Virus record (IMG/VR): IMGVR_UViG_3300050821_002462
Span: 1 to 34,880 of that record
Length of the DNA stretch: 34,880 nt
Direction: 5' to 3' (one strand)
Origin: a virus
A program made the position numbers and the translations under genes. The notes beneath the pieces were generated by a model. That model did not search any database. It worked only from the letters and a program-made list of their open reading frames with translations, and was not told the DNA's origin. Positions 27,427-34,649 of the stretch are shown here, piece after piece (the first letter of the stretch is position 1; each line of letters starts with the position of its first letter).

Positions 27427-27617
27427 CGAGGTTCCAGCAGAGATTTGTGGAGCATGGCGAGCCAATTTCCCTCGGCACCAAGATCCTCGCCTACATCTGA
27501 CCACATCTCCGGAGTCACCGTCTTAAGCGTGCGGAGGACTTCGGCAAGGATGGCGCGAACGTCACTTTCATCACCATAGGCGCAGCACTCCGCCACCAAT
27601 TCCTCATACGCGCTCAT
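27423..27617 (-). CDS. Small acidic hypothetical protein (64 aa)
   Basis: ATG 27617 in an ATGA overlap with the NusG-like gene. Helical and acidic (MSAYEELVAECCAYGDESDV then AILAEVLRTLKTV). Its coupling to the NusG-like gene suggests joint expression. Unknown function. Confidence 0.65.
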   Translation of the reverse strand: MSAYEELVAECCAYGDESDVRAILAEVLRTLKTVTPEMWSDVGEDLGAEGNWLAMLHKSLLEPR

Positions 27618-28309
27618 GCTAACTCCAATGCGCTTGGCTTCAGGGTTGTGGATGTCCGGCGCCCAAATAGATCCAAGTCAACCCGGATACCGGCCTTCGA
27701 GAACGCCTCGACTAGGCCTTGGAACCCAGTAAGGGGCCCATCGCCGATTCGGACCGCGTCGCCTATTTTGAATGTTCGCGCCCACGCTGGGATCTTCGTT
27801 TCGTCCCATTTGCCGTCGATTTCTGCCTCGTTGATGGCGCGGACCGCCCGTTGATCAAGCGCCCAAGGGCCAGCCGAATCGCCGATGATCTCGCTGATTC
27901 CGTCATGCACCCATGCGGAGAGAGGCTCCTCGACCTCACCGACGAACAGATACCGGCCGAACACCGCGGTTTGATGTATTCTCTTCCGGCGCCCTACCCG
28001 TGCGCGCGCCTGATAGACCGTCTTCCGGCCGAGTGGGCAATAGGCCACGAACCCGAGCTCGTTCAGGTCGAGCGCCACGCCTCGAGCCATCTGCGGTCGG
28101 CAGACTGCGACCACCCAGCGGCGGACCTCATCCATCGGAAGGGCTCTAGGCGCCACAAGGACGGGGGCAGGAAGCTCATGAATGCCTGTCTGGCGGCTAC
28201 CTATGCCGGATATGGATCTTTGCGCCCTGGCGGCCCGCGCTAGCGATCCTGGGTCCATTCCAAGGGCGCGCGCCCGCTTGCGGAGCACCTCGAGTTCAAT
28301 CTTGCCCAT
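27614..28309 (-). CDS. NusG/RfaH-like transcription antitermination protein
   Basis: 231 residues from ATG 28309 (MGKIELEVLRKRARALGMD), preceded by GGGAGAAG and overlapping the upstream gene by 14 nt; an earlier in-frame ATG is at 28366. A helical N-terminal extension (1-58) precedes a NusG N-terminal-like domain (62-160: RRWVVAVCRPQMARGVALDL, AVFGRYLFVG) and a KOW-like C-terminal domain (180-229: FKIGDAVRIGDGPLTGFQG). NusG paralogs bind RNA polymerase and suppress termination, so this may extend early or switch on late transcription. Confidence 0.8.
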   Translation of the reverse strand: MGKIELEVLRKRARALGMDPGSLARAARAQRSISGIGSRQTGIHELPAPVLVAPRALPMDEVRRWVVAVCRPQMARGVALDLNELGFVAYCPLGRKTVYQARARVGRRKRIHQTAVFGRYLFVGEVEEPLSAWVHDGISEIIGDSAGPWALDQRAVRAINEAEIDGKWDETKIPAWARTFKIGDAVRIGDGPLTGFQGLVEAFSKAGIRVDLDLFGRRTSTTLKPSALELA

Positions 28310-28532
28310 TGGACTTCTCCCTCTCGGCAAGTATCGCGTCGGCAGCTTCGTAAGCTTTTTTCGCAAGAAACTCGGCGCTAGATGGAGATCTGGAGGCCGG
28401 AAGTCCGATTAGGCCGCATAGCGCCTGCCCAGCGAACCAGTCGCGGATCGTCATGCCTTCGTGGGCAACCTCACCCATGCTGCCGTGCGACGGGAACGCA
28501 GGCCCTCCATCATCAAGCTCAGTCTTGCCCAT
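28296..28532 (-). CDS. Conserved-type small phage protein (78 aa)
   Basis: ATG 28532 (MGKTELDDGGPAFPSHGS). The motif GGPAFP, then GMTIRDWFAGQALCGLI and KKAYEAADAILAEREK, is a frequently seen short phage protein of unknown function. Overlaps both neighbours by 14 nt. Confidence 0.75.
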   Translation of the reverse strand: MGKTELDDGGPAFPSHGSMGEVAHEGMTIRDWFAGQALCGLIGLPASRSPSSAEFLAKKAYEAADAILAEREKSNGQD

Positions 28533-29651: not shown

Positions 29652-29852
29652 CTATCCCTCAATCTCAGCGATAAATTCCTTCGGCAGGCGCGATCGCCAC
29701 GACTGCAAAAGCATTAGAGTCAGTGTCGCGGCTTTCAGCCCAGGCTCCAGATGCTCCCACTCCTTGGGCTTCATACTTGGATTGCCGCGGCGCATGGCAT
29801 GGACAGCGGCGACATCGACGGCTGACGTCTGTGCATGAAGGGAGGCTTTCAT
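29652..29852 (-). CDS. Small hypothetical protein (66 aa)
   Basis: ATG 29852 in an ATGA overlap with the C5 methyltransferase. Helical with MKASLHAQTSAVDVAAVHAM and EPGLKAATLTLMLLQSW. No recognised motif. 43 nt separate it from the chosen replication start. Confidence 0.6.
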   Translation of the reverse strand: MKASLHAQTSAVDVAAVHAMRRGNPSMKPKEWEHLEPGLKAATLTLMLLQSWRSRLPKEFIAEIEG

Positions 29853-31708
29853 GTCTTCGCCTTCAACTCAGCATCGATCCGCGCAGCTATCCAACGGACA
29901 CAGGGAACCGCCCAGCTATTGCCGAGGGCTTTGTAGCGAGGACCGTCGGGACACTCTTCGGCGGGCTTACCTCGCCAAGGGATGCGGGTATAATTGTCAG
30001 GGAATCCCTGTAATCTTTCGCATTCTTTGGGGGTAAGGCGCCGCACGGCCCATTGATGGATTGCGAGTGTGGAATCTGTCTGATTTTCGCGAACCGTCGC
30101 AGCAACATCGTCTGCGTCTGACCACCAGCCAGCCCCCGAACTAACGGCAGCCGCCACATAGCTCCGGCTTGACCCACCGCTTGCGGCGCGAATGTTGGCG
30201 GTATCGTGCGGCCCCTCGAATTGCGCCCCGCCCTCGCGCCCGCGCATGTCGAAGGCGACGGCATGTGCTTGGGTGGTCGATAGCGTTGGACTTATTTCCC
30301 CAAACGTATCTGCGCTACCTTTGTTGGCCTGCATATCAATGCCGCCAATGTAGGCAACGGCGATGCTATGCCCGTCCGTATCGAGCGGGCCGCTCATGTC
30401 GCCGTATTGGAGGACATCGGATTGGCGCGCGTCGAAGGCGATGGCAGGCATAACGCCAGCGTTCGCATGGCTGCGCGTGAAGCCGCCAGCGCGCAGCGTC
30501 GGCGCCAAGTCGTTCTGCGCATCAGCGCCGTCGTCTTTAGCCGTGAAGCATATCGGCACAATCGGCGTGCCGCGCCCCGTGCCGTCCTCCGTACATCCGT
30601 CGCTCTTGGTTAGTGCGTGCGTGCGCTCTCCCGTCGCGCAGGGGATGAGCAGAATACCGCGCGGTGATGGCTTTGACGCCAGCGAGGATGGCACGGGATC
30701 CGCGGCATGGGCACTCTGAGCGCGAGCGCGCAGGGTGTGAGCAACGAGGTCAGTGTGGTCCCGGTCATCGCGGGCCTTCATCGTCGATGCGGTGCCGTCG
30801 ATTTTGTACTCGCTAAACGACACCATGCGGGCGGCGACGGCTAATCCTCCCCCAAGTTCAAAGTCGGTCCCAAGTCTGCCACCGCCCTCAGTGCGCGCGC
30901 TAGGAGTTCCGGCAATTCCTTGCCCCGCTTCTCGGCTCGGCGGAGAATCCCGGTACATGCCTTGGGACTCAAATAGAACCGCTGCGGGATCGGCCCCGTT
31001 TCCAGGATCGTAGACAACGAACAGACGCGCGCGTCGTTGGGCCAAGCCGAAATATTGAGCGTCGAAAACCCGCCATGCCGCCCGGCCGAGAGGCCCGGCA
31101 ACCATGCCGACACCCGGCCATCGTGTGACATGCCCCTCTTCGAAAGCGACTTCGTTTCCATCGTCGTCAGGTTCTGTTCCGGCGTCTCTCCATCTCCAGA
31201 ATTTGTTGGATTTTCCGTGCGCAGGTTTTGCGACCGGCTCGATGGGACCATCTCCCCCGACAAGCGCTCCCAAGAGACAGCCGAAGGCGTTGTCTTTGGT
31301 CGATAGTGTTCCTGGGACATTTTCCCAGAGGGCATTCCGCAATCCATGAGATCCAGCAAGTTCATGAGCAAGCACCGCAAATGCGAGAGTGAGATTTCCG
31401 CGCGCATCAGCGAGCGACATGCGTTTGCCCGCGACCGAGAACGCTTGGCATGGCGTCCCGCCGCAGAGAATGTCCACGATCGGTGGTAAGAGCGCGATCT
31501 TCGTGAAGTCGCCGAAGTTAGGCACGCCATTGCCCGTTAGTGGCTCGTCGGGCATGTTTGAGCCGTAGTGATGCGCGAGCACCGCAGATGGGAAAGCCTC
31601 TATTTCCGCGAAGCCGACGGCGGTCCAGCCAAGCGGAGCGAATGCGACTGAGGCCGCTTCTATTCCGCTGCAAACGGATAGGAAGCTAATTCCCACCGCC
31701 CGCCTCAT
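29849..31708 (-). CDS. C5-cytosine DNA methyltransferase (Dcm-like), long variable region
   Basis: 619 residues, ATG 31708 (overlap 23 nt). Motif I SVCSGIEAASVAFAPLGW (11-28), motif IV GGTPCQAFSVAG with catalytic Cys87, motif VI WENVPG (128-133), motif VIII AQRRARLF (223-230), motif IX RRLTPKECERLQGFP (about 556-570), motif X GNSWAVP (596-602). All key residues are present. The region between VIII and IX is about 320 residues, with repeated TL-type units (VAHTLRARA, APTLRAGG, SPTLSTTQ), far longer than in simple enzymes. Likely protects phage DNA from host restriction. Confidence 0.9.
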   Translation of the reverse strand: MRRAVGISFLSVCSGIEAASVAFAPLGWTAVGFAEIEAFPSAVLAHHYGSNMPDEPLTGNGVPNFGDFTKIALLPPIVDILCGGTPCQAFSVAGKRMSLADARGNLTLAFAVLAHELAGSHGLRNALWENVPGTLSTKDNAFGCLLGALVGGDGPIEPVAKPAHGKSNKFWRWRDAGTEPDDDGNEVAFEEGHVTRWPGVGMVAGPLGRAAWRVFDAQYFGLAQRRARLFVVYDPGNGADPAAVLFESQGMYRDSPPSREAGQGIAGTPSARTEGGGRLGTDFELGGGLAVAARMVSFSEYKIDGTASTMKARDDRDHTDLVAHTLRARAQSAHAADPVPSSLASKPSPRGILLIPCATGERTHALTKSDGCTEDGTGRGTPIVPICFTAKDDGADAQNDLAPTLRAGGFTRSHANAGVMPAIAFDARQSDVLQYGDMSGPLDTDGHSIAVAYIGGIDMQANKGSADTFGEISPTLSTTQAHAVAFDMRGREGGAQFEGPHDTANIRAASGGSSRSYVAAAVSSGAGWWSDADDVAATVRENQTDSTLAIHQWAVRRLTPKECERLQGFPDNYTRIPWRGKPAEECPDGPRYKALGNSWAVPCVRWIAARIDAELKAKT

Positions 31709-33025: not shown

Positions 33026-33053
33026 TTGACAACATAGCGATATTCGCTATTCT
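33026..33053 (+). promoter_or_regulatory. Rightward promoter with embedded operator, antisense to the Cro-like gene
   Basis: TTGACA (33026-33031), 16-nt spacer, TATTCT (33048-33053). The palindrome TAGCG-ATATT-CGCTA (33035-33049) fills the spacer and shares TA with the -10. It points through the Cro-like gene in antisense toward the repressor-like gene at 33381, as lambda pRE does. Confidence 0.7.
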
Positions 33054-33071
33054 CGCGCCGAACGGCGGAAC

Positions 33072-33314
33072 TTATTGATCCACGCCAATATCTTGTGATT
33101 CGGACGGAAGAAGGTCTTCAGCGCTGATGGGAACGCCCAATTGTTCCGCCGCTCGCAGGATGGTTCGATGCAGCGATTGAGGAATCTGGCCGCCGGTGCC
33201 GCCTACGCTTCTCGGGCGTTTCCAGTTCGAGACTCGGGTGGGGTGGCGACTGACAATCTCGGCAACCTTGGATGTGCCGCCCAATTTTTTAACGATCGAC
33301 GAAGCAGGTTCCAT
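33072..33314 (-). CDS. Cro-like helix-turn-helix regulator (80 aa)
   Basis: ATG 33314. Helix-turn-helix core LGGTSKVAEIVSRHPTRVSN with recognition helix ending NWKRP, followed by GGQIPQSLHRTILRAAEQLG. It is transcribed leftward as the first early gene. The promoter's -10 ends only 9 nt before ATG, so the mRNA should be nearly leaderless. Likely binds the TAGCG-N5-CGCTA sites, competing with the repressor across the intergenic space. Confidence 0.75.
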   Translation of the reverse strand: MEPASSIVKKLGGTSKVAEIVSRHPTRVSNWKRPRSVGGTGGQIPQSLHRTILRAAEQLGVPISAEDLLPSESQDIGVDQ

Positions 33315-33322
33315 AGCGATAT

Positions 33323-33351
33323 TGTCTAGCGACCAGCGCTAGGTTTGTCAA
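33323..33351 (-). promoter_or_regulatory. Leftward early promoter (pR-like) with embedded operator
   Basis: TTGACA (33346-33351 on the minus strand), 17-nt spacer, TAGACA (33323-33328). Operator TAGCG-ACCAG-CGCTA lies at 33327-33341 (plus strand), overlapping the -10. A second imperfect site (33314-33328; 7 of 10 arm bases) overlaps the start codon. Confidence 0.7.
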
Positions 33352-33380
33352 GCCGCCGTAGCGAATCGGACTAATGTCTG

Positions 33381-33854
33381 ATGAAAAGGTATGTGCTATC
33401 TTCACCCATGTTTGCCGGGTGGGTGAGAGCGGCAATCGCTAAGTTCGGCACCCAGGCCGAACTCAGTCGGCGCTTGTCCGCATTGCTAAAGCGAGAGATT
33501 CATGCTGCGGCGGTCAACAAGCTCGCCAGCGGGAAACGCGCGCTGGCCGCCGACGAAATGCTCGCCATCGCGCAAATTGCTGATTATCCGGTGCTTATTT
33601 CATTAACGGGGGACACATTGGACAAAAGCAACGGTCAGAGATCCACCTTCAACGAAGATCACCTGATCAGATTATTTTCCTATGCTCTACAATGGAGAGG
33701 ACTTGATGCTGGGGCCGCTCGAAACCTAGCTGCATCTCTATTAGAAGCCGCCCGCAATCATCCTGATCGGACAGATTCTGTGCTAAGTGATGACCAACTA
33801 GAGACGGTTGCTCGCGCCTTAGTAGCTGCACTCGGGTCTCAACGGCAGCAATAA
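33381..33854 (+). CDS. CI-like repressor candidate without peptidase domain (157 aa)
   Basis: ATG 33381; a later in-frame ATG is at 33408 and neither has a strong ribosome site. The helix-turn-helix region is FGTQAELSRRLSALLKREIH then AAAVNKLASGKRALAADEML. The C-terminal half is helical (LSDDQLETVARALVAALG) and has no S24/LexA-type autoprotease motif, so direct RecA-triggered cleavage is unlikely. Divergent from the Cro-like gene, it completes a lambda-style switch. Confidence 0.7.
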   Translation: MKRYVLSSPMFAGWVRAAIAKFGTQAELSRRLSALLKREIHAAAVNKLASGKRALAADEMLAIAQIADYPVLISLTGDTLDKSNGQRSTFNEDHLIRLFSYALQWRGLDAGAARNLAASLLEAARNHPDRTDSVLSDDQLETVARALVAALGSQRQQ

Positions 33855-34064
33855 GAAAACCCATCATTCCCCCGCCTGATTGCATGTCGTTTTTCGCTTA
33901 TCTTTTGAGCGCTAGCCTGCCACCGACCAGCCGCTGATTCCGGCTCTCGCATAGGTCTTTCTACCTATACGTTAGGGGCGACGGCTGTCAAATCACGCAT
34001 TTTTGATCTGCCTCCACAGATGTGTGGTGGTCTGTGGATAGCGCAGATCGCTGTATTTTATCGC

Positions 34065-34092
34065 TTGACAAGCTAGCGAATAACGCTATGGT
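34065..34092 (+). promoter_or_regulatory. Rightward early promoter with embedded operator
   Basis: TTGACA (34065-34070), 16-nt spacer, TATGGT (34087-34092). Operator TAGCG-AATAA-CGCTA (34074-34088) occupies the same place as in the 33026 promoter. Confidence 0.75.
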
Positions 34093-34138: not shown

Positions 34139-34190
34139 ACCGGGCCGCCTGCTAGCGTCCTCCCCAGACCGGCGGCCCGGTTCTTTTTCT
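34139..34190 (+). terminator. Intrinsic terminator / attenuator in the leader
   Basis: ACCGGGCCGCC (34139-34149) pairs perfectly with GGCGGCCCGGT (34171-34181) around a 21-nt loop, followed by TTCTTTTTCT. It lies about 45 nt after the predicted start of transcription and before the 34210 gene. It either ends a short RNA or gates the operon. Confidence 0.85.
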
Positions 34191-34209: not shown

Positions 34210-34437
34210 ATGAAGATCAAAACGTCATTCGATTATCCGCCCATTCCGGTTCGTTCATTCGATTGGAGCGCGATTGACACCGACACTTATGATGGCGATC
34301 CCCGCAGCCCAATTGGGTATGGGGCGACAGAACAAGAAGCAATCGGTGATTTGCTCTCGCAGATGGAAGAGGACGCTGAAGCCTCTTACGAGCAATCACT
34401 AAGCTATTTCAACCGCTACATTGCGGGGGATCGGTGA
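34210..34437 (+). CDS. Small hypothetical protein (75 aa)
   Basis: ATG 34210 after a strong polypurine ribosome site. Sequence includes SPIGYGATEQEAIGDLLSQM, a HicB-like GxGxTxxEAxxDL pattern, and an acidic C-terminus. Whole HicB fold not evident and no HicA partner is next door. Starts the rightward early unit. Confidence 0.65.
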   Translation: MKIKTSFDYPPIPVRSFDWSAIDTDTYDGDPRSPIGYGATEQEAIGDLLSQMEEDAEASYEQSLSYFNRYIAGDR

Positions 34438-34649
34438 TGCCGCACCGTGATCAAAAGACCTTCGATGAAGGATGGAAAGCGTGGGGTGATGGGGCCGACG
34501 CCGACGAGAACCCTCATCCGTTCGGGGCCTACGAACACCGCGCATGGCTCGATGGCTGGATGGCCGCCGAAGAGGATTTCGAGCATCAGGAGTCCGAACG
34601 CGACGACTACGGCGATCGCGCAGACTTTGAATACGACCGTAACCGTTGA
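34437..34649 (+). CDS. Rmf/CrpP-like small protein (70 aa)
   Basis: ATG 34437 in a TGATG overlap; GTG 34434 is possible. FDEGWKAWGDGADADENPHP followed by AYEHRAWLDGWMAAEED has the GW...NP...W..GW layout of ribosome modulation factor-like proteins, which are frequent in phages. Acidic tail. Ribosome binding is inferred from the pattern only. Confidence 0.6.
   Translation: MPHRDQKTFDEGWKAWGDGADADENPHPFGAYEHRAWLDGWMAAEEDFEHQESERDDYGDRADFEYDRNR

Follow-up and report, generated by a model that had tools for sequence, protein, structure and literature searches.

A palindromic candidate operator in the promoters of a predicted lambda-like immunity switch of alphaproteobacterial phages

Three perfect copies of the palindrome TAGCG-N5-CGCTA, each embedded in a promoter, are very probably the repressor-binding sites of the dormancy switch of a temperate phage. 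They were found in a viral sequence of 34,880 bases (the window), which is a complete IMG/VR record, classed as linear and possibly a fragment. The sites lie in what would be the immunity region of this temperate tailed phage, whose host is probably an alphaproteobacterium. Comparison of the sequences with those of related loci makes it highly probable that this region works as a lambda-like immunity switch, in which one operator would serve both the repressor and the Cro-like protein in the OR and OL promoters. The two proteins, encoded by divergent genes, would bind a single palindrome with the core TAGCGA-N3-TCGCTA. This operator would lie within the cro/lytic promoter (OR1, helped by OR2) and within the opposite early promoter (OL1, helped by OL2). 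The repressor on the operator would cover the gap between the −35 and −10 boxes, so that both promoters would be switched off, and Cro would act at the same sites. Binding, repression, and cooperativity at the OR and OL sites are predictions of this model. Observed directly were the sites with their promoter geometry, their conservation in relatives, and the covariation of the outer operator base with a recognition-helix residue in both proteins.

The three copies are the only perfect ones in the window, and they occupy the positions given in the preliminary description of this DNA (Table 1). Shuffled sequences contained 0.01 copies on average, and none of 100 shuffles reached three. Each copy lies between a TTGACA −35 box and a −10 box that begins with the last TA of the palindrome, at offsets of 3, 4, and 3 nt from the −35; both statements had been made before and were confirmed by direct reading. 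The generic sigma-70 scan flagged only sites 1 and 3. The −10 box of site 2 (the cro promoter), TAGACA, is weak. Two rightward promoters and one leftward promoter had been proposed, and these orientations were recovered; however, site 1 has no gene of its own, and its promoter runs antisense through cro. The operator is, to our knowledge, unlike those of lambda and P22 in sequence.

Table 1. Positions of the candidate operators, promoters, and genes in the window
Feature	Position	Strand	Remarks
Site 1 promoter, TTGACA-N16-TATTCT	33026–33053	+	Rightward; −35 at 33026–33031, 3 nt, operator TAGCGATATTCGCTA at 33035–33049, −10 at 33048–33053; flagged by sigma-70 scan
Site 2 (putative OR1), cro/lytic promoter, TTGACA-N17-TAGACA	33323–33351	−	Leftward; −35 at 33351–33346, 4 nt, operator at 33327–33341, −10 at 33328–33323; geometry as in 43 relatives
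Site 3 (putative OL1), early promoter, TTGACA-N16-TATGGT	34065–34092	+	Rightward; −35 at 34065–34070, 3 nt, operator at 34074–34088, −10 at 34087–34092; corresponds to relatives' distal promoter-embedded site
Putative OR2, imperfect operator TAGCGAATCGGACTA	33359–33373	.	2 mismatches; 32 bp from OR1; spacing of 30–34 bp kept in 35 relatives
Putative OL2, operator TAGCGCAGATCGCTG	34039–34053	.	1 mismatch; 35 bp from OL1; relatives' distal-pair spacing
Imperfect palindrome over cro start codon	33314–33328	.	2 mismatches; no site there in relatives
Cro-like HTH protein, 80 aa	33072–33314	−	Near carph-isopro family; recognition helix from residue 25 (Pro; Arg in relatives)
Repressor, N-terminal CI/XRE-type HTH, without S24	33408–33854	+	Recognition helix from residue 33 (Ala; Arg in relatives)
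Terminator-like hairpin with T-rich tail	34140–34189	+	In leader of OL1 promoter, before its first gene
First ORF of OL operon, 75 aa	34210–34437	+	Homologue beyond OL in loci L008 and L019
Antiterminator gene	27614–28366		Leftward operon

Sites with two or fewer mismatches are concentrated in the same region. Seven were found between 33.0 and 34.1 kb, whereas their frequency in the remainder of the window predicts 0.46; when the region was shuffled 2000 times with dinucleotides preserved, seven sites were never reached. The imperfect fourth site that had been described over the start codon of the Cro-like gene is present, but relatives have no counterpart of it and it is possibly a chance occurrence. 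The putative OR2 and OL2, both absent from the preliminary description, are better supported as extra sites, and their distances from OR1 and OL1 fit the spacings of the relatives. Another site that had not been described, a one-mismatch operator at 33427–33441, lies within the start of the repressor gene; it could be a displaced OR3 or a product of chance. At the position of OR3 in the relatives, no counterpart was found in the window. It should be mentioned that the profile built from the relatives scores OR1 and OL1 of the window at only 5.9 and 10.6, because their outer bases differ; the scores of the relatives are usually above 15. As in a lambda-type switch, the repressor and cro genes of the window diverge and are separated by promoters containing candidate operators, and a second operator region occupies the early promoter beyond the repressor gene (site 3 with OL2). 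That the compact switch envisaged at first is a single immunity switch with promoter-embedded operators is well supported by 43 related loci sharing the motif and its promoter spacing, but the layout is the lambda-like one of two regions and has more than three sites.

These relatives were gathered through Cro. After removal of duplicates, 43 distinct loci besides the window were compared, all of them alphaproteobacterial where named. Relatives of the Cro-like protein occur in viral contigs, in the genomes of Bradyrhizobium, Bosea, Ancylobacter, Ochrobactrum, and Xanthobacter, and in the phages phiLM21 and Pben1. The repressor used as a query gave no match in viral contigs and phage records, and the first OL gene gave no relative in viral contigs. 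The operator GTAGCGATAATCGCTAC, or a similar sequence, overlaps the cro promoter in all 43 loci. A TTG-type −35 box is located three to five bases before TAGCG in most of them, and the −10 box begins with the last TA of the site; this means that the spacing of motif and promoter seen in the window recurs in related phages. The distance from the −10 box to the cro start codon has a mode of 12 nt, and a leaderless cro mRNA is therefore predicted.

Further sites in the relatives were located with the profile. Copies of the operator are found upstream of that in the cro promoter at about 33 and 58 bp: OR2 is present in 35 of the 43 loci at 30–34 bp from OR1 (mostly 33 bp), and OR3 in 21 (mostly 58–59 bp). 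In addition, 31 of the 43 loci have a distal pair of operators beyond the repressor gene, mostly 0.7–3.3 kb away. The two members are separated by 30–35 bp at 30 of these loci, and the outer one is in a promoter pointing away. This arrangement is a lambda-like OR/OL layout, in which site 2 of the window corresponds to OR1 and site 3 to OL1.

When all viral contigs were searched for the −35/operator pattern, 102 stretches were obtained, compared with 112 for a control palindrome. These raw counts are no better than the control and are not evidence; the clustering is. Clustered copies were found in 31 of the 102 stretches and in none of the 112 controls, and a cro relative was found in 38 and in none, respectively. 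A pattern search with the operator form of the window yielded one related cro locus (L321), together with unrelated phages having similar palindromes. Several TAGCG-N5-CGCTA palindromes beside TTGCAT or TTGACA −35 boxes were also seen in L322 and L342 (the same four sites, which in L342 lie within 5 kb), in L334 and L343, and in L339. No relative of the Cro or the repressor of the window was found at these loci, and their palindromes possibly belong to independent switches with a similar operator.

The outer bases of the operator bear on the question of which protein reads it. In the AlphaFold2 models (mean pLDDT of 87 for Cro and of 77 for the repressor, with higher values in the repressor HTH), helix 3, which is the recognition helix, starts at the residues listed in Table 1. 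This first position is occupied by Arg in 36 of 39 repressors and in 39 of 41 Cro proteins, and Arg is replaced in both proteins of the window. The outer G:C pair of the operator is kept in the relatives and is absent from all six half-sites of the three perfect copies in the window. The presence of the outer G agrees with Arg in Cro at 59 of 60 loci and with Arg or Lys in the repressor at 53 of 57. Furthermore, the L321 locus has Val and Pro at the corresponding positions and again no outer G, which supports the arginine rule. The pattern is strong, but two to five changes are enough to explain it on the tree, so that the independent events are few. The simplest reading of this covariation is that the repressor and Cro both read the same operator, with the residue that opens each recognition helix probably in contact with the outermost base pair. 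The equivalent residue of the 434 and lambda repressors also contacts an outer pair.

A single repressor had been thought to silence all three promoters. The promoters do share the operator, but the covariation points to both HTH proteins. A role for the repressor alone, with other targets for the Cro-like protein, would account for one sub-class of operators: those of the GTATCGA type, in place of GTAGCGA, are confined to loci (L011, L024, L033, L047, L048, and L049) where NRSILNKI forms the recognition helix of the repressor, and the Cro helix is unchanged there. This alternative is nevertheless quite unlikely, since the first residue of the Cro recognition helix follows the outer base at all but one of the loci, and in the window the Arg is missing from both Cro and the repressor. 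Binding of a host regulator instead of phage proteins is highly improbable, because in 43 loci, which span several genera, the sites are found at fixed places around the phage cro, and their sequence changes along with residues of the two phage regulators.

The Cro-like protein reaches 33.1 bits against the carph-isopro family (NF046037), below the curated cut-off of 38. The N-terminal HTH of the repressor is homologous to that of the divergent repressors of the relatives, and its start at 33408 (MFAGWV) is preferred over the ORF start at 33381 because the relatives begin at the former position. The repressor of the window has no Pfam match and hence lacks the S24 domain that 34 of 39 aligned repressors carry, so RecA-dependent self-cleavage is an unlikely route to induction. 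Beyond cro, most large ORFs are oriented leftward; they include methyltransferases and the antiterminator, followed by terminase, portal, major head protein, and head-closure genes. The repressor gene and those from 34210 onward are oriented rightward. This bulk of leftward ORFs suggests that the cro promoter is the main lytic promoter. Site 3 would drive the opposite, rightward early operon; a homologue of the first gene of this operon lies beyond OL in a Bradyrhizobium retamae prophage. The strong hairpin in the OL leader and the antiterminator gene together suggest antitermination, and no such hairpin was found in the OL leaders of the relatives. In many of those leaders (e.g., L007, L022, and L026), a CCATC-like stretch is located just past the OL −10 box and is perhaps a leader signal. 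The second OL gene (34434–34649, + strand) shows a weak likeness to ribosome modulation factor (Pfam E value of 0.0038, below the cut-off). The cytosine C5 DNA methylase ORF (29849–31708, − strand, 619 aa) matches Pfam in two stretches, which suggests a long insertion. A search of Rfam gave no match.

Site 1 is located 3' of cro, at +264 relative to the cro start, and its promoter, which matches 10 of the 12 consensus bases, runs antisense through cro toward the repressor gene. This site is peculiar to the present phage in the material searched. Among 59 distinct cro loci, 87 perfect core palindromes were counted, and 85 of these fall in three canonical intervals; the other two are one at L042 (short gap, −149) and a distant one (+7806). 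No core palindrome was found between −15 and +3000 of the cro start, an interval represented by at least 600 bases in 58 loci. The relatives of the methyltransferases (54 loci) were tried as a guide to site 1 and rejected, as no clustered copies of the motif were present there. The scan flagged no terminator between site 1 and the repressor gene; by eye, a weak hairpin before T6 is seen at approximately 33265–33291. The antisense region 33056–33320 showed no unusual RNA fold (z of +1.0), and inspection by eye found no −35 box for a leftward promoter at site 1.

Lying downstream of cro and directed back across it, antisense, at the repressor gene, this predicted promoter has the position and orientation of lambda PRE. 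In contrast to the activator-dependent PRE, site 1 has a consensus −35 box, which argues against the need for an activator, and the operator of the repressor itself is built into it. It is conceivable, although tentative, that site 1 is a self-limiting and activator-free establishment promoter, a counterpart of PRE that the repressor and Cro would turn off via the shared operator. Its RNA, made early in infection, would be both repressor mRNA and antisense cro RNA, and the promoter would later be silenced by the repressor through the same operator as the lytic promoters.

Site 1 might instead be a functionless relic of an OL-type promoter left after module exchange, a doubtful but possible explanation. 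No relative has a site at this place, and the gene behind cro differs from that of the relatives, so the region has been rearranged. The perfect palindrome and the intact promoter speak against a relic. Moreover, the outer bases of site 1 are A/T as in the window's own form of the operator, not G/C as in the relatives; this is expected if the site was kept in step with the regulators, although unconstrained drift could also yield A/T. It is unlikely that site 1 has no working promoter and is an operator that, just behind cro, acts as a roadblock to lytic transcription in the leftward direction. Repressors on DNA can halt an elongating polymerase, and site 1 does separate cro from the remaining genes of its operon, but a roadblock needs no promoter, and the one at site 1 is complete, its operator starting 3 nt after the −35 as at site 3. 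The establishment role is favoured over that of a relic or a roadblock.

The window resembles lambda in the −35/operator/−10 logic, in the divergent repressor and cro genes with promoter-embedded operators between and beyond them, several per region and at near-regular spacing, and probably in the use of the same sites by both proteins. It differs from lambda in the unrelated operator sequence and in the extra operator-bearing antisense promoter behind cro. The spacing of OR1 and OR2 is about 24 bp in lambda and about 33 bp in the group of the window. Unlike lambda-type repressors, that of the window is devoid of the C-terminal S24 domain for self-cleavage and cooperativity. The best fold matches of the Cro model are Xfaso 1 Cro and N15 Cro (PDB 3bd1 and 6on0), with about 20–28% identity, Foldseek E values above 0.01, and an unrelated operator.

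Among known phages, Sinorhizobium phage phiLM21 and the phiLM21-like prophages have a homologous Cro-like protein and a divergent repressor. The Cro-like protein of phiLM21 shares 52.8% identity with that of the window over 90% (E value of 1e-15), the homology extending over the whole domain. Unlike the window, phiLM21 has the S24 domain and lacks site 1. In this group, locus L014 carries OR1, OR2, and OL sites of the same motif. A 2025 survey of phiLM21-like prophages sought operators of the lambda or 16-3 type and reported them absent (PMC12429752), operators could not be predicted for Brucella phage BiPBO1 (PMC4729917), and in related Sinorhizobium prophages the repressor and Cro genes were named with no operator (PMC5537653). 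A description of the present operator was not found in the literature searched, from which subscription papers were excluded. As a precedent, Hall et al. (2005), cited in PMC4488713, described for lambdoid phages how the recognition helices of Cro proteins correlate with the half-sites of their operators.

These results give a concrete candidate operator, with its layout and spacing, for a group of alphaproteobacterial phages including phiLM21, and a testable residue-to-base rule that would be common to repressor and Cro. If the role proposed for site 1 is true, the extra antisense promoter of one phage could favour lysogeny without an activator.
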